Source of the DNA: Erythrobacter sp. AP23
GTDB lineage: Bacteria > Pseudomonadota > Alphaproteobacteria > Sphingomonadales > Sphingomonadaceae
Assembly (NCBI RefSeq): GCF_001542855.1
Contig: NZ_LNBY01000016.1
Span: forward strand, 62,001 to 126,000
DNA length: 64,000 nt
Reading direction: 5' to 3'
In this document: positions 39,971 through 54,594 of the stretch, in pieces
Numbering within the stretch: position 1 is the first letter of the stretch
Layout: every line of letters starts with the position of its first letter
Notes under the pieces: model-generated
What the model was told of the DNA's origin: nothing
Databases searched by the model: none
What the model saw: the letters and a program-made list of their open reading frames with translations, nothing else
Position numbers and translations under genes: made by a program

Positions 39971-41782
39971 ATGGCCTTGAATCCGATGGCTGAATTCGTC
40001 GTTACACTGATCGATGCGTGGTCTGCATGGGTGGGCCTTGCAGTATTGATCGGGCTGTTTGTTCTCTTCGCGACAGAGAGATTTGCACCGGTAACAATTG
40101 CGGTGGTCGGGGCGGCCGTCATGCTCGTGCTGGGTTATCTTCCGCGCAGCGAGATGGAGCTGGTGTTCGCCAATCCGGCGCCCATCACCATTGCGGCCAT
40201 GTTCATCCTGACCGGCGCGCTGATCCGTACCGGCGTCGTCGAAGCGCTTGCCAGCATCGCCGCGCGGCGCACGGCGGGTCGGCCCCGCCTGTCCATCGCC
40301 GAATTGCTCGGCGGCACCTTCGTTTCTTCCTCGCTGGTCAACAACACGCCCGTCGTGATCATTCTTGTGCCGGTCGTGAAGAAGATCGCCAGCATCGCGG
40401 GCACAACCCCAAGCCGCCTGCTCATCCCGCTGTCCTATCTCTCCATTCTGGGGGGCACGCTAACACTCATCGGCACTTCGACGAATCTGCTGGTAGACGG
40501 CGTGGCCCAGCGCGCGGGCGAACCTGCATTCGGCATTTTCGAACTGACCGGGGTCGGGATCATCGCCGCGATCACCGGGACGGTCTTCCTCCTTATCGCC
40601 GGACGTTTCCTCCTTCCCGACCGCGAAGAAACCGAAGGTACCGGCGGTCGCCCGCTCGAGGAGCGTTACCTCACCGAACTGCTGGTAACCGAGGCATTCT
40701 CGGACCTCGGAAAATCGGGCGCGGAGATTGGGATCGCCAGGCGGTCGGGGGTCAGGCTCGTAGGGATCGAACGGTCCGGCCGGATCATCCGCAAGGATCT
40801 CGATAGCCAGATCGTCCAGATCGGCGACGTCCTGTTGCTTGCCGCAAATCAGGTCGAACTCCTTTCCCTAGCCGACCTGAACGACGACACGATCGGCCTT
40901 TCCCTTCGCGGACATTCGAGGGAGGGTGACACCCGGATTGTGGAAGCATCCATCTCGCCCAGCCACCCGGCGCTCGGTCGGAAACTCTCGGAAATTCCCT
41001 TTCTTGCAAAGACCAATGCGCGGATACTCGGCCTTTCGCGGGCTCGGCACCTGCCCGGCCCGAACCTGTCCAGTGTTCGCTTGCGTGCAGCCGACCATCT
41101 GCTGATCGAAGGCTCCCCAACCTGCGTCGCGGCGATCGAGAATAACGTCAATCTGATCAATATCTCGCAGCCCGAAAGCCGCCCATTTCGACGGTTTCGC
41201 GCGCCTGTCGCCATCGCCACGATGCTGGGCATCATCGCGCTCGCGTCGATCGGCGTTTGGACCATCGAACTGCTGGCCATTACGGGCGTGGCCATCGTCT
41301 TGCTGACGCGCTGCATCGATCCGGAGGAGGCGTGGCGCAGTATCGACGGTAACGTCATCGTGCTGATCTTCGGCATGCTCGCCGTGGGGGTCGGGCTGGA
41401 AGGCGCCGGAACGGTCGATCTGATCGTCGACGCGGCGCTTCCCTATCTGGCAACGCTGTCGCCGCTGCTGCTGCTGCTGGCGATCTACCTGCTGACCTCG
41501 ATCCTGACCGAGGCGGTGACGAACAATGCGGTGGCCGTCATCATGACTCCCATCGTCCTCGCGCTGGCCAAGGATCTGGGGGTCGACCCGCGACCGCTGC
41601 TGTTCGCAGTCATGTTCGCCGCCTCGGCGAGCTTTGCTACGCCGGTCGGCTACCAGACCAACACCATCGTCTATGCGGCGGGCAATTACCGCTTCAGCGA
41701 CTTCCTCAAAATCGGCGCGCCGATGAACATCGTTGTGGGTATCGCTACATGCTTGGCGATCGAATGGATGATCTGGCCCTGA
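39971..41782 (+). CDS. SLC13-type anion permease with central RCK_C (TrkA-C) domains
   Basis: A 603-residue membrane protein. Two halves of about six helices each carry the paired hairpin-like motifs VNNTPVVIILVPVV and TNNAVAVIMTPIVLALA, typical of the divalent-anion:Na+ (DASS/SLC13) group. Between them, about residues 200-390, lie two RCK_C regulatory domains. Members move sulfate, dicarboxylates or similar anions, usually with Na+. ATG at 39986 is also possible. Its neighbours are Na+/H+ and Ca2+/Na+ antiporters, which fits use of a sodium gradient. Confidence 0.85.
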   Translation: MALNPMAEFVVTLIDAWSAWVGLAVLIGLFVLFATERFAPVTIAVVGAAVMLVLGYLPRSEMELVFANPAPITIAAMFILTGALIRTGVVEALASIAARRTAGRPRLSIAELLGGTFVSSSLVNNTPVVIILVPVVKKIASIAGTTPSRLLIPLSYLSILGGTLTLIGTSTNLLVDGVAQRAGEPAFGIFELTGVGIIAAITGTVFLLIAGRFLLPDREETEGTGGRPLEERYLTELLVTEAFSDLGKSGAEIGIARRSGVRLVGIERSGRIIRKDLDSQIVQIGDVLLLAANQVELLSLADLNDDTIGLSLRGHSREGDTRIVEASISPSHPALGRKLSEIPFLAKTNARILGLSRARHLPGPNLSSVRLRAADHLLIEGSPTCVAAIENNVNLINISQPESRPFRRFRAPVAIATMLGIIALASIGVWTIELLAITGVAIVLLTRCIDPEEAWRSIDGNVIVLIFGMLAVGVGLEGAGTVDLIVDAALPYLATLSPLLLLLAIYLLTSILTEAVTNNAVAVIMTPIVLALAKDLGVDPRPLLFAVMFAASASFATPVGYQTNTIVYAAGNYRFSDFLKIGAPMNIVVGIATCLAIEWMIWP

Positions 41783-41904
41783 TGGCGCGGAGGACCTACT
41801 GTACGGCTTCAAAGGTATCGGCAAATTCCTGTCGGCGGTGGCCGAATATCGGAACGAGTAGGAGGCCATGGTCCAATAATCCCCATTCGTTTGAAACTCT
41901 TTGG

Positions 41905-41989
41905 GCGGTCCGACATTGTCTTCATGCGGACCGGGCCCCTCTGGCAAGCGTGTGCAAGCGCTTGTGATGTCGGACCGCATCGGACCGCC
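41905..41989 (+). ncRNA. Candidate cis-regulatory RNA with alternative pairings upstream of nhaA
   Basis: GCGGTCCGACAT (41905-41916) pairs exactly with ATGTCGGACCGC (41967-41978); inside it CAAGCG (41945-41950) pairs with CGCTTG (41959-41964). A further copy of the right arm, GGACCGCC at 41982-41989, could instead pair with GGCGGTCC at 41904-41911. Mutually exclusive stems ahead of a terminator-like hairpin are typical of a riboswitch or attenuator. No known class was matched. Confidence 0.5.
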
Positions 41990-42002
41990 GCCTCGCTCGA
42001 CT

Positions 42003-42032
42003 GGGGTCTTCTCCCCATCGCCCGGGCTTTTT
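42003..42032 (+). terminator. Terminator-like segment inside the nhaA leader
   Basis: GGGG-TCTTCT-CCCC (42003-42016) is followed by the self-complementary GCCCGGGC (42020-42027) and TTTTT (42028-42032). The position, 120 bases ahead of nhaA, would suit attenuation rather than the end of the SLC13 transcript only; both are possible. Confidence 0.5.
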
Positions 42033-42076
42033 ATCGGTCGTCCGATCGACGAAGCCGCCGACTACGGAGACTTGAG

Positions 42077-42148
42077 ATGAAGGCCCGCGTTTCGACACCG
42101 AAGCTACACACCCGTTATCCAGCCCCACTGCGCCGCGTGGTTGCCTGA
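42077..42148 (+). CDS. Possible 23-residue leader peptide upstream of nhaA
   Basis: An ATG behind GGAGACTTGAG opens a short frame (MKARVSTPKLHTRYPAPL and five more residues) that stops three bases before the nhaA ATG. Such spacing would couple its translation to nhaA. It is basic and has no domain. It could be chance. Confidence 0.35.
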   Translation: MKARVSTPKLHTRYPAPLRRVVA

Positions 42149-42151
42149 CCT

Positions 42152-43330
42152 ATGTTCACTTCGGCAGCGGAAGCCCTGCGCGATTTCCTCAAACAGGAGA
42201 GCGCAGGCGGTATCGTCCTGATTGCAGCGGCCGCATTGGCGCTCGTTGCAGCCAACAGCATCGCGGCAGGTGCCTATTTCAACGGTTTGCAGGTTCCGGT
42301 GGTCTTGTCCGTCGGGGGCTTCGCGATCGACAAGCCGCTGCTCCTTTGGATCAACGACGGGTTGATGGCCGTGTTCTTCTTCCTCGTTGGGCTCGAAGTG
42401 AAACGCGAGGTCGTCGAGGGACAACTGTCCAACTGGAACAAGGCGTCGCTCCCGCTTTTCGCGGCGATCGGTGGCATGGCAGCCCCGGCGCTGGTCTTCC
42501 TTGCATTGAACGCAGGTTCGCCCGAGAATGTCGCCGGCTGGGCCATCCCCGCCGCCACCGATATCGCCTTCGCGCTCGGCATCCTCTCGCTGCTCGGCCC
42601 GCGCGTGCCGGTCGCGCTGAAGGCGCTGCTGCTGGCCATCGCGGTCATCGACGATATTGGCGCCATCACCATCATCGCCCTGTTCTATTCGGGTACGATC
42701 GATACCGGAATGCTTGCCGGCGGCGTGCTTGCCCTTGCCGGCCTGGTGGTCCTCAATCGTTTTCGTGTCGGGTCGAGCATACCCTATGTGATCCTGACGC
42801 TGGTGCTGTGGGTCTTCGTGCTCAAATCCGGCGTGCATGCGACGCTGGCGGGTGTGGCGGCGGCCATGACCATTCCCATGGTCGGACGCGACGGATCCGA
42901 TCCGCTCGAACGCATGGAGCATGCCCTGCATCCATGGGTCGCGTTCCTCGTCATTCCGATCTTCGGCTTTGCCAATGCCGGCGTCAGCCTCACCGGCCTC
43001 GAGCCTGCCGACCTCCTCGCCCCGCTGCCGCTCGGCATCGCGCTGGGGCTCCTTATCGGAAAGCAGATCGGCATATTCGGTTTCGCCTATGCCGCGGTAA
43101 AGCTCAAACTCGCGAGCCTTCCCGAGAATGTCGGCTGGAGGCAGGTCCACGCGGTCTCGCTGCTGGCGGCGATCGGCTTCACTATGAGCCTGTTCATCGG
43201 CAATCTGGCTTTCGCCGATCCTTCGCAGGTCGATGCGGTGAAGCTCGGTGTGCTGTCGGGATCGCTAGTGGCGGCCCTGGCGGGATACTTCCTATTACGC
43301 GCCTCACTCCCGAAAGCATCGCCCGCATGA
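42152..43330 (+). CDS. nhaA: Na+/H+ antiporter NhaA (first copy)
   Basis: A 392-residue NhaA with the transport-site aspartates Asp137 (PAATDIAFALG) and Asp167/Asp168 (AVIDDIGAI), plus the pH-sensor region KPLLLWINDGLMAVFFFLVGLEVKRE. It exchanges internal Na+ (or Li+) for external protons. Its stop overlaps the Ca2+/Na+ antiporter start by four bases. The upstream leader has strong secondary structure. A second NhaA is encoded at 52101; they share motifs but differ along their length. Confidence 0.93.
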   Translation: MFTSAAEALRDFLKQESAGGIVLIAAAALALVAANSIAAGAYFNGLQVPVVLSVGGFAIDKPLLLWINDGLMAVFFFLVGLEVKREVVEGQLSNWNKASLPLFAAIGGMAAPALVFLALNAGSPENVAGWAIPAATDIAFALGILSLLGPRVPVALKALLLAIAVIDDIGAITIIALFYSGTIDTGMLAGGVLALAGLVVLNRFRVGSSIPYVILTLVLWVFVLKSGVHATLAGVAAAMTIPMVGRDGSDPLERMEHALHPWVAFLVIPIFGFANAGVSLTGLEPADLLAPLPLGIALGLLIGKQIGIFGFAYAAVKLKLASLPENVGWRQVHAVSLLAAIGFTMSLFIGNLAFADPSQVDAVKLGVLSGSLVAALAGYFLLRASLPKASPA

Positions 43331-44310
43331 CGATTATCCTGGCGTCCCTCGTCGGGGGACTCATTGCGCTTCTTGTCGGCGGAGAACTGCTCGTCCGCGG
43401 CGCGGTGGGACTTGCGGAAAGAGCCGGCGTTACTCCGCTCGTCATCGGCCTGGTAATCGTGGGTTTCGGGACCTCTATGCCGGAACTCGTGACCAGCGTG
43501 GAAGCGGCTCTGGCCGGGTCCCCGGCAATCGCCTGGGGCAATATCGTCGGATCGAATCTCGCCAATACGCTGCTGATCCTCGGTGCGGTCGCCCTGATGG
43601 CTCCCATCGCGATCAGGCAGGGCGCGGCCCTGCGCGACACCGGGGTGGCGTTGCTGGCGACGGTGATGCTCGTGTCGATCGCCGTCGCGGGCCTGCATGC
43701 TGCCTGGCTCGGCCTGGCGATGCTGGTCCTGCTCGCATGCTACATCGCCTATTGCTACCGCGAGGAACGCCAAGCCGCCCCCGAAATCCTGCACAATGCG
43801 CCCTATGATCGCGCCGCCGCGCTCGAAATGAGCGATAGTCGACTGCATGCACCAACGGCAAACTGGTTCAAGCCCGTCGGCATTACGCTTGCCGGGCTGG
43901 CCATCCTTGTGATCGGAGGGCGCTTCCTCGTCACCGGAGCCATCGATCTTGCGCGTCTGGCCGGTCTAAGCGAGACGCTGATCGGCCTGACCATCGTGGC
44001 GATCGGCACCTCTCTGCCGGAACTCGTGACCTCGCTTGTCGCGGCGCGCAAGGGCGAAACCGAAGTTGCATTCGGCAATGTCATCGGCTCGAACATCTAC
44101 AACCTGCTGGGTATCGGGGGCGTCACCATGCTGGTCGCGCCCGAGGCAATCCCCAGGACCTTGCTACCTGTCGATCTGGGCATCATGGCTTTCTCGGCCA
44201 TTGCGGTTTTCGGTGCCGTCTGGCTGGCCAAGGGAGTGGGGCGCTTGTTGGGTGGAACACTGGTGGCCGGCTACGGCTTGTTCCTGTTCGCGGCGGTCAT
44301 CCAGGGCTAA
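43327..44310 (+). CDS. Calcium/sodium antiporter (CaCA family, YrbG-like)
   Basis: A 327-residue membrane protein with the duplicated cation-exchanger repeats: GFGTSMPELVTSVEA...GNIVGSNLANT in the first half and AIGTSLPELVTSLVAARKGE...GNVIGSNIYNLLG in the second. These alpha repeats form the ion site of Na+/Ca2+ exchangers. Its start is coupled to nhaA, so sodium expelled or imported by one can drive the other. A larger frame on the same strand is only a shadow. Confidence 0.92.
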   Translation: MTIILASLVGGLIALLVGGELLVRGAVGLAERAGVTPLVIGLVIVGFGTSMPELVTSVEAALAGSPAIAWGNIVGSNLANTLLILGAVALMAPIAIRQGAALRDTGVALLATVMLVSIAVAGLHAAWLGLAMLVLLACYIAYCYREERQAAPEILHNAPYDRAAALEMSDSRLHAPTANWFKPVGITLAGLAILVIGGRFLVTGAIDLARLAGLSETLIGLTIVAIGTSLPELVTSLVAARKGETEVAFGNVIGSNIYNLLGIGGVTMLVAPEAIPRTLLPVDLGIMAFSAIAVFGAVWLAKGVGRLLGGTLVAGYGLFLFAAVIQG

Positions 44311-51082: not shown

Positions 51083-52108
51083 CTAGCGGTCGCCAAGCGT
51101 GCCGGTCTCGGCAGGATCGGCCGGCCAGTCCGTCTCCTCCTCGCCGCGGGTCTTCCACAGCGAGTAGAGCACGCCGGCGGCAATCAGTGCACCGGTGACA
51201 CCCAGGCTGATCCAGGCCGGGAATTTCGCGCCGGACAGCACGAAATCGGTCACGAAGATTTTGCTGCCGATGAAGACGAGCACCGCTGCCAATGCGTACT
51301 TGAGGTAGTGGAAACGGTGGACCATCGCAGCAAGTGCGAAATAGAGCGCGCGAAGCCCAAGGATCGCGAAGATGTTGGAGGTATAGACGATAAAGGTATC
51401 GGTCGTGATCGCGAAGATCGCGGGTACGCTGTCGAGCGCAAAGACGAGGTCGGCGAGATTGATCACGACCAACGCCAGCAGCAATGGTGTGGCCGCGCGG
51501 ACCATGCGCCCGGTCTTTTCGTCGCGCACCTTGACGAGGAACTTTTGACCATGGAGCTCGGGCGTCACGCGCATGTGGCGGCTGATCCACTGCACCGCCG
51601 GATTGCTGCCCACATCCATCGGCTCGTCCCCGGCGAAAAACATCTTGATGCCGGTGAAAACCAGGAAGGCGGCGAAAATATAGAGGACCCAATAGGCCTC
51701 GGCCAGCAACGCGGCGCCGCCCGCGATCATCAGGCCGCGCAGCACGATCACTGCCATGATTCCCCATAGCAGCGCGCGATACTGGTATTTCGGCGGGATG
51801 GCGAAATAGGTGAAGATCAGGCTTATCACGAAGACATTGTCGATCGACAGCGCCTTTTCGATGAAGAACCCCGTGAAATATTCGATTCCTGCGGTTTCGC
51901 CGCGCTGGAACCACACCCAGGCGCCGAAAAGCAGCGCCACGCCGATGTAGAAGGCCGACAGCTTGAGGCTTTCGCCAATCCCGAGCGCACGATCCTCCTT
52001 GTGGAGAACGCCGAGATCGAACGCGGTCAGGACGATGACGATGGTCAGGAATGCGGCCCAGAACCAGATCGGAGTGCCGAGCCAGTCGGCGAACAAGAAT
52101 TCAAGCAT
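51083..52108 (-). CDS. TerC/Alx-family membrane protein
   Basis: A 341-residue integral membrane protein with about nine helices and the conserved acidic blocks FFIEKALSIDNVFV and VINLADLVFALDSVPAIF that mark TerC. Family members export Mn2+ or help metal loading of exoenzymes, and Alx responds to alkaline pH. Its start overlaps the NhaA stop by eight bases, so pH or sodium stress may link the two. Confidence 0.88.
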   Translation of the reverse strand: MLEFLFADWLGTPIWFWAAFLTIVIVLTAFDLGVLHKEDRALGIGESLKLSAFYIGVALLFGAWVWFQRGETAGIEYFTGFFIEKALSIDNVFVISLIFTYFAIPPKYQYRALLWGIMAVIVLRGLMIAGGAALLAEAYWVLYIFAAFLVFTGIKMFFAGDEPMDVGSNPAVQWISRHMRVTPELHGQKFLVKVRDEKTGRMVRAATPLLLALVVINLADLVFALDSVPAIFAITTDTFIVYTSNIFAILGLRALYFALAAMVHRFHYLKYALAAVLVFIGSKIFVTDFVLSGAKFPAWISLGVTGALIAAGVLYSLWKTRGEEETDWPADPAETGTLGDR

Positions 52109-53303
52109 TGGCGGGGATACTATCGAAAGTTGAGTGGGTACGCGGCGCTTTGGCGAGGACCGACATGCCGATCATCGCCGAGGCCAGCGAACCAGATAGC
52201 ACACCCATCTTGACCGCGTCGACCTGTTCCGGATCGACGAAGGCCAGGCCGCCGATGAACAGGCTCATTGTGAAACCGATCCCGGCGAGACAGGAAAGGC
52301 CGTAGACGTGGCGCCAGGTCACCCCCGGAGGCATCGTCGCAAGGCCCGACCTGACCGCGATCCAGCAGGCGCCGAAAATGCCGGCCTGCTTGCCGACGAC
52401 GAGACCAGCCGCAATGCCGAGCGAAAGCGGCGCGAGCAGTGCTTCGAGTCCGGCGCTGGCGAAGGATACACCGGCATTGGCGAAGGCGAAGATCGGCAAA
52501 ATCAGGAACGCGACCCAAGCGTGCAACGCGTGCTCGAGCCGTTCGAGCGGGCGCTCGTCACCTGTGGCGATCGGCACGAACATCGCCGTCAACACCCCGG
52601 CCAGCGTTGCATGAACGCCCGATTTGAGGACGCAAATCCACAGGAATGCGCCCAGTAGGAAATAGGGGATGGTTCGCGCGATACCCATGCGGTTGAGCAG
52701 CAGCATGCCCGCTGCCGGTACCATCGCCAAGCCGAGCGCGGCCACATTCATGTCTTCGGTATAAAACAGAGCAATGATCGCGATCGCACCGATATCGTCG
52801 ATGATCGCAATCGCCAGCAGCAGTGCCTTGAGCGCCACCGGCACGCGGCTGCCCAGCAATGCGAGAAGGCCGAGCGCAAAGGCGATGTCGGTTGCAGCGG
52901 GAATTGCCCAACCGCGAATATTCTCTGGCGATCCCGCATTAATCGCGACGAATACCAGCGCGGGCACAGCCATTCCGCCGATGGCAGCGTAGACCGGGAG
53001 CGCGGCTTGTTTCCAATTGCGCAGTGCTCCGGTGACGATCTCGCGTTTTACTTCCAGTCCGATCAGGAAGAAGAACAACGCCATCAATCCGTCGTTGATC
53101 CACAAAAGCAATGGCTTGTCGATCGCGATCAGATCGCCTGCGGTGAAGTTCACTGGCGTAGCGAGGAAGCTCTTGTAATCGTCCAGGAGGGATGAATTGG
53201 CGATCGCCAGCGCGATGGCAGCCGCCACGATCAAGATGATGCCGCCGGCACTTTCGCTGGCGATGAAGGCGCGCAGGCGCTCTGCGGGACTTGGCTTGGT
53301 CAT
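52101..53303 (-). CDS. nhaA: Na+/H+ antiporter NhaA (second copy)
   Basis: A 400-residue NhaA with Asp139 (PAATDIAFALG) and Asp169/Asp170 (AIIDDIGAI). It exports Na+ for H+. Compared with the copy at 42152 it has an extra N-terminal segment and a different C-terminus. It is cotranscribed with TerC instead of a Ca2+ exchanger. Its upstream spacer is pyrimidine-rich and shows none of the stems seen before the first copy. Confidence 0.93.
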   Translation of the reverse strand: MTKPSPAERLRAFIASESAGGIILIVAAAIALAIANSSLLDDYKSFLATPVNFTAGDLIAIDKPLLLWINDGLMALFFFLIGLEVKREIVTGALRNWKQAALPVYAAIGGMAVPALVFVAINAGSPENIRGWAIPAATDIAFALGLLALLGSRVPVALKALLLAIAIIDDIGAIAIIALFYTEDMNVAALGLAMVPAAGMLLLNRMGIARTIPYFLLGAFLWICVLKSGVHATLAGVLTAMFVPIATGDERPLERLEHALHAWVAFLILPIFAFANAGVSFASAGLEALLAPLSLGIAAGLVVGKQAGIFGACWIAVRSGLATMPPGVTWRHVYGLSCLAGIGFTMSLFIGGLAFVDPEQVDAVKMGVLSGSLASAMIGMSVLAKAPRTHSTFDSIPANA

Positions 53304-53369: not shown

Positions 53370-53579
53370 TCAGCCTGCGAGGCCGCGCCCATAATAATGC
53401 CGCTGGAGGGCGACGATCTTGTCCTTGAGACGAAGGCGCAGCCGTTTCATTGCTTTCAGATCCTCGCGCGCGAGCGCCGATTTGGAGGTGTCGATGAGGC
53501 GATTGAGATTTCGATGCTCGCGCATCAGCTTGCGCAGATAGGGTTTCATGATCTTCTCGTCGGGGGACTTGCGGGTCAT
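53370..53579 (-). CDS. YdcH/DUF465 small protein
   Basis: A 69-residue basic, helical protein. The family stretch REHRNLNRLIDTSK is followed by a second helix (LKAMKRLRLRLKDKIVALQRHY). GGAGAG places the start at 53579. Such proteins are soluble coiled coils with no known role. It is 67 bases upstream of nhaA. Confidence 0.8.
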   Translation of the reverse strand: MTRKSPDEKIMKPYLRKLMREHRNLNRLIDTSKSALAREDLKAMKRLRLRLKDKIVALQRHYYGRGLAG

Positions 53580-53679
53580 GTGCTCTCCATCATTCGTCGA
53601 AGACAATATGTCGGACGCCGCCTCGATAATCTAATTCGAATCTCATGCCTCAATCGATAAGTTATGCTAATCGGGCGTC

Positions 53680-54594
53680 ATGCCCAGCCTGAGACAATTC
53701 GAAATCTTCGTGCGGCTTGCCGACACCGGCAACATGGGGGAGGCCGCTGCCGGGCTCGGCTTGACGCAGCCTGCGCTGAGCCAGCAACTGCGCTCGTTGG
53801 AGGAAACCTTGGGGCTGCGCCTGTTCGAGCGTGTACCCAAGGGCATGCAACTGACACCGGCCGGGCGCGACCTCGTTGCCGGGGCGCGCAGCGTGATCGC
53901 GGCTGCGCGCGATTTTCGCGATGCCGCCGATCATATCGCGGCCCGGCCCGCCGGATCGATCCGCTTCGGCGTCACGCCCACCATGGGCCCCTATCTGCTG
54001 CCCGGCGTGATCAAGGTGCTGCACGAACGTTATCCCGACTTGCGCCTGTTCATGCGCGAAGGCATCCCATCCATACAGCATGCCGAACTCGAGGCCGGCG
54101 AACTGGACATGGTCCTTTCTCCCCTTCCGGTCGTCGGGCGCGGCTTGCGGGTCGAGCCCCTGTTCCGCGAGCCGTTGCGGATCGTCGCTCCCCCCGATGA
54201 TCCGCTACACGACAGTGGCAATCTCACGAGGGAGAATTTCCACGGGCGTACCTTTCTCACGCTCGATCATCGCCATCACTATCATCGTCAGCTTCTGGAG
54301 ATCTGCGACCAGCTCGGCGCATCGGTTCTGTCGGATTACGAAGGAACCAGCCTCGATGCGCTCCAGCAGATGGTCGGGTCAGGCGTGGGCCTGGCGATCC
54401 TCCCCGAATTGTACATCCGATCCGACGCCGGCGGGCTGGACGTCGTGCGGATTGCCGAACCGGAAGGCTGGACCGAATATCGCAGTCTCGCCGCAGCCTG
54501 GCGTCCGACGGCGGCCTATGCCGACCTCTACGCCGAAGTGTCCCAAATTATCGCCGACGAGGCGCGCAAACGGGCGAACTTGCAAACGGCTTAG
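53680..54594 (+). CDS. LysR-family regulator, OxyR-like, lacking the peroxidatic Cys
   Basis: A 304-residue LysR regulator: N-terminal HTH (about 1-60, LRQFEIFVRLADTGNMGEAA, TQPALSQQL) and a periplasmic-binding-like sensor domain. Aligned without gaps to OxyR around Cys199-Cys208, Cys199 is replaced by His200 while the resolving cysteine is kept as Cys209 (HHYHRQLLEIC). It therefore should not sense H2O2 by the usual disulfide. It lies upstream of the redox genes that follow and probably regulates them or its own divergent promoter. Confidence 0.85.
   Translation: MPSLRQFEIFVRLADTGNMGEAAAGLGLTQPALSQQLRSLEETLGLRLFERVPKGMQLTPAGRDLVAGARSVIAAARDFRDAADHIAARPAGSIRFGVTPTMGPYLLPGVIKVLHERYPDLRLFMREGIPSIQHAELEAGELDMVLSPLPVVGRGLRVEPLFREPLRIVAPPDDPLHDSGNLTRENFHGRTFLTLDHRHHYHRQLLEICDQLGASVLSDYEGTSLDALQQMVGSGVGLAILPELYIRSDAGGLDVVRIAEPEGWTEYRSLAAAWRPTAAYADLYAEVSQIIADEARKRANLQTA

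Follow-up and report, generated by a model that had tools for sequence, protein, structure and literature searches.

A terC RNA before nhaA in Erythrobacter sp. AP23 and a candidate competing-helix platform in related leaders

The lithium and sodium riboswitch classes Li+-I (nhaA-I), Li+-II (nhaA-II), and Na+-I (DUF1646) share with the leader described here their place before nhaA, and passages of PMC9646797 state translational control for Li+-I and Li+-II. The Mn2+ riboswitch yybP-ykoY (RF00080) accompanies TerC-family genes, acts as an ON switch, and has a possible link with alkaline pH; according to passages of PMC9603457, the alx leader of E. coli, which belongs to this family, responds to alkaline pH as well as to Mn2+. 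The closest described system is terC RNA (RF03067), whose covariance model has 59 positions, in contrast to the 177 of yybP-ykoY. Our literature search found no paper on the terC motif, on RF03067, or on terC as an alphaproteobacterial structured RNA, and we know of no ligand for it.

The window, a stretch of 64,000 nucleotides from Erythrobacter sp. AP23 (contig NZ_LNBY01000016.1, positions 62,001 to 126,000), was scanned with 4227 Rfam covariance models, which identified a full-length terC RNA at 41923-41982 on the plus strand (65.9 bits; cut-off 39.9). No other Rfam family reached its cut-off anywhere in the window, and a permissive scan of 41500-42400 gave two further weak matches, both below their cut-offs. 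The models for nhaA-I, nhaA-II, and DUF1646, which we take to have been among the 4227, matched neither in the window scan nor in the permissive scan, and yybP-ykoY was absent from the window and, at an E-value of 0.001, from the genome of this strain. The best terC RNA score among the matches listed for the order was 68.6 bits. The leader has the full 59-position match, the P1 and P2 helices, and the leader position of the family, as well as the invariant core sequences flanking P2, CCGGGCCCCUCUG and GAUGUCGG; it differs in that the gene behind it is nhaA rather than terC, and in that the place of a further hairpin (hairpin A) and of a long-range helix, both treated below, lies outside the 59-position model. 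By its covariance-model match, the leader element is a member of a known orphan cis-regulatory family and not a new riboswitch class, and a terC RNA at the start of an nhaA and Na+/Ca2+ exchanger transcription unit is the best explanation of the locus. The initial annotation, which had supposed a structured, probably cis-acting RNA before nhaA and had been unable to match it to the lithium and sodium classes, was correct on both points; the novelty that it had considered for this leader was not borne out. The features of the locus are as follows.

41891-41919 (+), promoter-like pattern, TTGAAA at 41891-41896, 17 nt, CATTGT at 41914-41919; recurs in related leaders
41905-41916 (+), 5' arm GCGGTCCGACAT of a 12-bp repeat, complement of 41967-41978; within the promoter-like pattern and peculiar to this copy
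41923-41982 (+), terC RNA (RF03067), model positions 1-59, score above the curated cut-off
41926-41934 (+), 5' strand of P1, pairing with 41970-41978; A41930, opposite A41974, is unpaired
41944-41965 (+), P2 hairpin, 41944-41951 with 41958-41965; covariation in the family
41970-41978 (+), 3' strand of P1, partner of 41926-41934
41977-41995 (+), place of hairpin A; 3' strand degenerate, three of eight bases differing from relatives
42035-42046 (+), what remains of the long-range partner site, complementary to 41979-41990 at 10 of 12 positions (83%)
42066-42070 (+), GGAGA, ribosome-site motif of the short ORF; relatives have GGAG at the aligned position
42077-42148 (+), 23-codon ORF, probable DUF465 remnant; DUF465 genes stand at the same place in relatives
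42152-43330 (+), nhaA, Na+/H+ antiporter (PF06965, 477.8 bits)
43327-44310 (+), Na+/Ca2+ exchanger family gene (PF01699), overlapping the end of nhaA

Both conserved helices were supported by comparison of homologous leaders, a check that the initial annotation had suggested along with the covariance models. In the leader alignment, P1 and P2 were 97.9% paired with 60 two-sided changes, compared with 24–41% pairing in slid controls; these changes lay mostly in P2 (three of five pairs) rather than in P1 (one of seven). The stretch 41900-41990 folded better than its shuffles (z = -2.87; 1 of 200 as good), and the longer stretch 41880-42080 gave a z of -2.00 with 7 of 200 shuffles as good. The window copy belongs to 86 leaders with the tail GATGTCGGACCG[CT]ATCG, 83 from the window's family and three (L047, L056, and L057) from elsewhere in the class. 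Opposite the invariant A within P1, these leaders have A (46), G (39), or C (1), and the same position in other terC RNAs is most often T (25 of 35).

The tail-type leaders combine the terC RNA with a putative platform of two competing helices. Hairpin A, located 3' of P1, was present in 82 of the 86 leaders and had at least 8 bp in 79, compared with 3.0% of shuffles. In alignment A2, which holds 73 of the 86 (L109, which lacks the hairpin like three others of the 86, is among the 13 left out), its seven pairs were 97.8% paired against 19–42% in slid controls. One pair is G-C in some leaders and A-U in others (23 cells), the remaining pairs vary by G-U, and the one of seven pairs with a two-sided change was not above shuffles in this alignment. 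The entire hairpin A is complementary to a site roughly 25 nt upstream of the start codon, the end of which lies 22–37 nt from that codon in the 22 leaders printed. The resulting long-range helix had an energy of -24.2 kcal/mol with the leader's own partner site, compared with -18.0 for the sites of other loci and -15.2 for shuffled partners, and 0 of 10000 permutations, which leave relatedness in, were as good (n = 69). In the RNAalifold consensus of the 23 nhaA leaders that make up alignment A1 (of 29), P1 and long-range pairs were mixed, and we did not rely on this consensus alone.

With P1 forced in place of hairpin A, predicted ribosome-site exposure was higher by 0.153, compared with -0.012 when the stretch in between was shuffled (n = 66; 50 leaders above control; Wilcoxon p 2.5e-6). 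In an initial count of 74 leaders, P1 opened the ribosome site (by more than 0.05) in 38 and closed it in 7, with the rest changing by at most 0.05. With P1 forced, the 5' strand of hairpin A was in downstream pairs with a mean probability of 0.63. These folding predictions suggest that P1 exposes the ribosome site, and the support for the platform is throughout thermodynamic or comparative. Both the long-range and the P1-forcing tests (69 and 66 leaders) were run on leaders whose hairpin A had 7 bp or more and whose start codon lay 60–130 nt away, so that the four leaders without the hairpin are in neither; start codons throughout were assigned by our own heuristic. L191 is an Erythrobacter metagenome-assembled genome with an NhaA 87% identical to that of the window; its leader had similar predicted exposure in both states (0.36 with P1, 0.39 with hairpin A). 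For the short leaders of TerC genes, pairing of P1 to the ribosome site had an energy of -10.9 kcal/mol for a leader's own site and -10.1 for the sites of others (98 of 5000 permutations; n = 39, with several start codons that look misassigned), and such pairing in these leaders is only modestly supported.

On this basis, we infer a translational ON switch. A signal would stabilise P1, whose bases overlap the foot of hairpin A; the long-range helix would then form, upon which the ribosome site would open and expression would rise. Judged from gene content only, the signal would be tied to alkaline or cation stress, with pH, alkali or divalent cations, and carbonate as the candidates. We give a probability of roughly 0.65 to this main reading, in which a terC RNA leads the nhaA unit, a signal-stabilised P1 turns expression on, and the signal is one of alkaline or cation stress. 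The competing helices make it possible to design mutants with opposite predictions. What this analysis adds is the putative platform of the window's bacterial family, together with the list of genes downstream of terC RNAs.

The window copy belongs to the four tail-type leaders that lack hairpin A. Its long-range helix was little used in the predicted folds (probability 0.10 unconstrained, 0.01 with P1 forced), and P1 itself had a probability of 0.02 in the unconstrained fold. Predicted exposure of the ribosome site was 0.29 with P1 forced, 0.05 with the 5' strand of P1 blocked, and 0.07 unconstrained. The drift of hairpin and helix and these P1 values point to a copy with a preserved core and a drifted platform, and the loss of hairpin A leaves its own switching state uncertain. 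The short frame behind it does stop at 42148, three bases before the ATG of nhaA at 42152, as the initial annotation had noted when calling it a leader frame; from its position, a DUF465 gene cut short is a more probable reading than a leader peptide with a regulatory role. At the same place, L191 has an intact ORF with the same MKAR start, continuing through the printed stretch. The 23-codon ORF had no match among Pfam profiles, that of DUF465 (PF04325) included, and its similarity to the DUF465 leader ORFs was borderline (67 of 1000 shuffles as good). No ribosome-site motif was found within 12 nt before the nhaA start, and nhaA probably relies on ribosomes translating the short ORF that ends three bases upstream.

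These features bear on a reading that we regard as doubtful, though the best of the alternatives: the window copy might be a decaying relative with a core kept by recent descent and no switching, and nhaA might be under promoter-region control through a rare element shared with a second nhaA operon. The absent hairpin, the shortened first ORF, and the little-used long-range helix agree with this reading, as does the element TCCGACAT-N(0-4)-TGTCTTC, which occurs at 41909-41923 (+) and 53599-53615 (-), before both nhaA operons, and nowhere else in the 3.4-Mb genome (0 expected in shuffles of the window). The intact core, with a score close to the best of the matches listed, and the change that P1 still makes to the predicted exposure of the ribosome site argue against it. 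The second operon lies in the window on the minus strand, without a terC RNA, and the genome has three nhaA genes in total.

51083-52108 (-), terC gene of the second nhaA operon
52101-53303 (-), nhaA of the second operon
53373-53579 (-), DUF465-like gene of the same operon, scoring slightly below the cut-off (23.9 against 25 bits)
53680-54594, LysR-type regulator, divergent from the second nhaA operon

The shared element may be the site of a common regulator or a trace of common descent. In a tree of NhaA proteins, that of the window had no firm placement, and the row for the third copy is a wrong ORF.

The gene content that bears on the signal was obtained from terC RNAs of the order, the class, and the phylum. 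At an E-value of 0.001, terC RNA had matches in 192 of 396 order genomes, 52 of 385 class genomes, and 64 of 398 phylum genomes, the nine phylum genomes outside the class all belonging to family f199. We examined 162 RNAs, comprising the own-genome, order, and class loci plus 100 stretches chosen from the matches listed (103 RNAs). From the order, the best 90 of 150 matches listed by E-value were taken, plus one from the class scan; from the class, all matches but four were taken, and L003 and L004, which were below the cut-off, were dropped. Genes were named by phmmer against 26 representatives and then by Pfam matches of the representatives; two labels, the L102 and L090 types, were without a Pfam match or unscanned.

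A same-strand downstream gene was assigned for 157 of the 162 RNAs, leaving five without assignment. The first gene was most often TerC (56, of three types), followed by DUF465 (44), a repeated link that offers a clue to this uncharacterised family, and Bax1-I (13). NhaA, zinc ribbon, and DUF4112 proteins each came first in seven, Usp in six, TerB in three, a lipoprotein-like family in three, the L159 family in two, and beta carbonic anhydrase in two. An alpha carbonic anhydrase, a P-type cation ATPase, a CitMHS transporter, a Tim44-like protein, a lipid kinase, the L090 type, and the L102 type were found once each. The nhaA gene was present in 29 loci, of which 23 also had DUF465 and six, the window included, did not. 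Ribonucleotide reductase, a candidate target, was rejected, as it vanished once the loci were oriented. Among 22 further loci of the phylum scan, the gene was TerC in seven, lipid kinase-like in four, zinc ribbon in three, and DUF465 first and then TerC in two; the remaining six were four DUF475 genes, one Na+/Ca2+ exchanger of the same family as the gene after the window nhaA, and one locus (L280) read at the wrong spot. In L275 and L280, the printed stretch is not the RNA. The DUF475 proteins (L275, L276, L277, and L281) match the TerC model too.

This list suggests a theme of ion and pH homeostasis, into which the lipid kinase, Usp, and Tim44-like genes do not obviously fit, and it narrows the candidate signals to a few that can be tested together. 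More speculatively, terC RNA could be the shared direct sensor (of pH, an alkali ion, or carbonate) of an alkaline- and cation-stress regulon, with a previously undescribed bistable platform in the window's family; its members might then include TerC, DUF475, NhaA, the Na+/Ca2+ exchanger, the P-type cation ATPase, exported carbonic anhydrases, and Bax1-I. That terC RNA instead senses Mn2+, as do the yybP-ykoY riboswitches found with other TerC-family genes, we consider improbable. The idea is in keeping with TerC genes as the commonest first genes and with the response of the alx leader to Mn2+ and alkaline pH, as described in PMC9603457; carbonic anhydrases and NhaA fit pH better. Moreover, of the 39 order genomes with a match to yybP-ykoY, 26 also carry terC RNA (14 of the 19 in which that match exceeds its cut-off), and since the two RNAs coexist, they are not substitutes, which makes Mn2+ less likely as the signal of terC RNA. 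These counterarguments are not decisive.

Turning to the DNA 5' of the RNA, the promoter-like pattern points to a likely transcript start at about 41923-41926. Its geometry is identical in related nhaA leaders. TTG[AGC] was found 30–45 nt 5' of the core in 137 of 161 loci (mean of 20 in shuffles, largest 31), namely in 75 of the 86 with the window's tail type and 62 of the 75 others, and the promoter hexamer scores averaged 7.1 compared with 5.7 in shuffles. In a column-by-column count, the promoter position was fixed enough to show in the 86 but not in the other 75. A strict sigma-70 scan found no promoter here, and the promoter is proposed because the pattern recurs across loci.

This pattern places the initial annotation's proposal of a switch in another light. 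Its perfect 12-bp inverted repeat (41905-41916 with 41967-41978) exists, and so do a perfect 10-bp repeat (41904-41913 with 41980-41989) and the second copy of one arm (TCGGACCGC at 41970 and 41980). The conserved P1 and P2 nest inside the 12-bp stem, which is not itself the conserved stem of the family: with the pattern TTGAAA-17-CATTGT, its 5' arm falls in the spacer and the second (-10) hexamer, and the arm may be present because it is part of the upstream element shared with the second operon rather than of the RNA. Across 161 loci (L095, which has no exact core, was omitted), the window arm was the longest upstream complement, 159 of the others having 5–9 nt and one 11 nt. The 12-bp stem recurred in none of the 160 other loci, nor in L191, the closest relative found, and was rejected as a conserved switch; the two exclusive pairings put forward as a switch involve DNA upstream of the likely start and were likewise absent from these loci. 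The T-run of the supposed terminator is present (TTTTT at 42028-42032), but a scan for intrinsic terminators, as a GC-rich hairpin with a T-run, found none here (shuffle mean 0.5). Only in the window's leader, among the 29 before nhaA, is the RNA followed within 95 nt by TTTTT, and an intrinsic terminator was rejected.

The 12-bp stem might still matter in longer transcripts, for example if transcription runs on from the transporter gene that ends at 41782; there it would open P1. In predicted folds of transcripts from 41840 or 41783, the stem had a probability of 0.96–0.98 and P1 one below 0.01; from 41880 or 41900, however, P1 won (0.97) alongside the 10-bp stem, and given the lack of the 12-bp stem in all 160 other loci we hold such a role to be quite unlikely. 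A new Li+/Na+ riboswitch class, or else a divergent nhaA-I, nhaA-II, or DUF1646 RNA, would suit the position before nhaA, where passages of PMC9646797 place lithium and sodium classes in other bacteria, but is very improbable given that terC alone exceeded its cut-off, that the permissive scan had none of those classes, and that terC RNAs stand before TerC as the first gene far more often (56 of 162) than before NhaA (7 of 162).

With terC RNA retained as the identity of the leader, several of its other loci can be described. A second terC RNA in the genome of this strain (L002; contig C1, 241083-241136; 51.9 bits) precedes a small gene without a Pfam match, lipoprotein-like by eye, of the family that also follows terC RNAs in L074 and L161. 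Carbonic anhydrases come directly after terC RNAs in L109, L087, and L149 (two beta, one alpha), and the one beta enzyme scanned had a weak match to a TAT signal. In family f77, the gene after the terC RNA is a YegS-like lipid kinase (L035, L272, L273, L274, and L278), outside the ion and pH theme. Divergent pairs of terC RNAs, about 100–130 nt apart, stand before TerC and DUF4112 in L069, L070, and L099.
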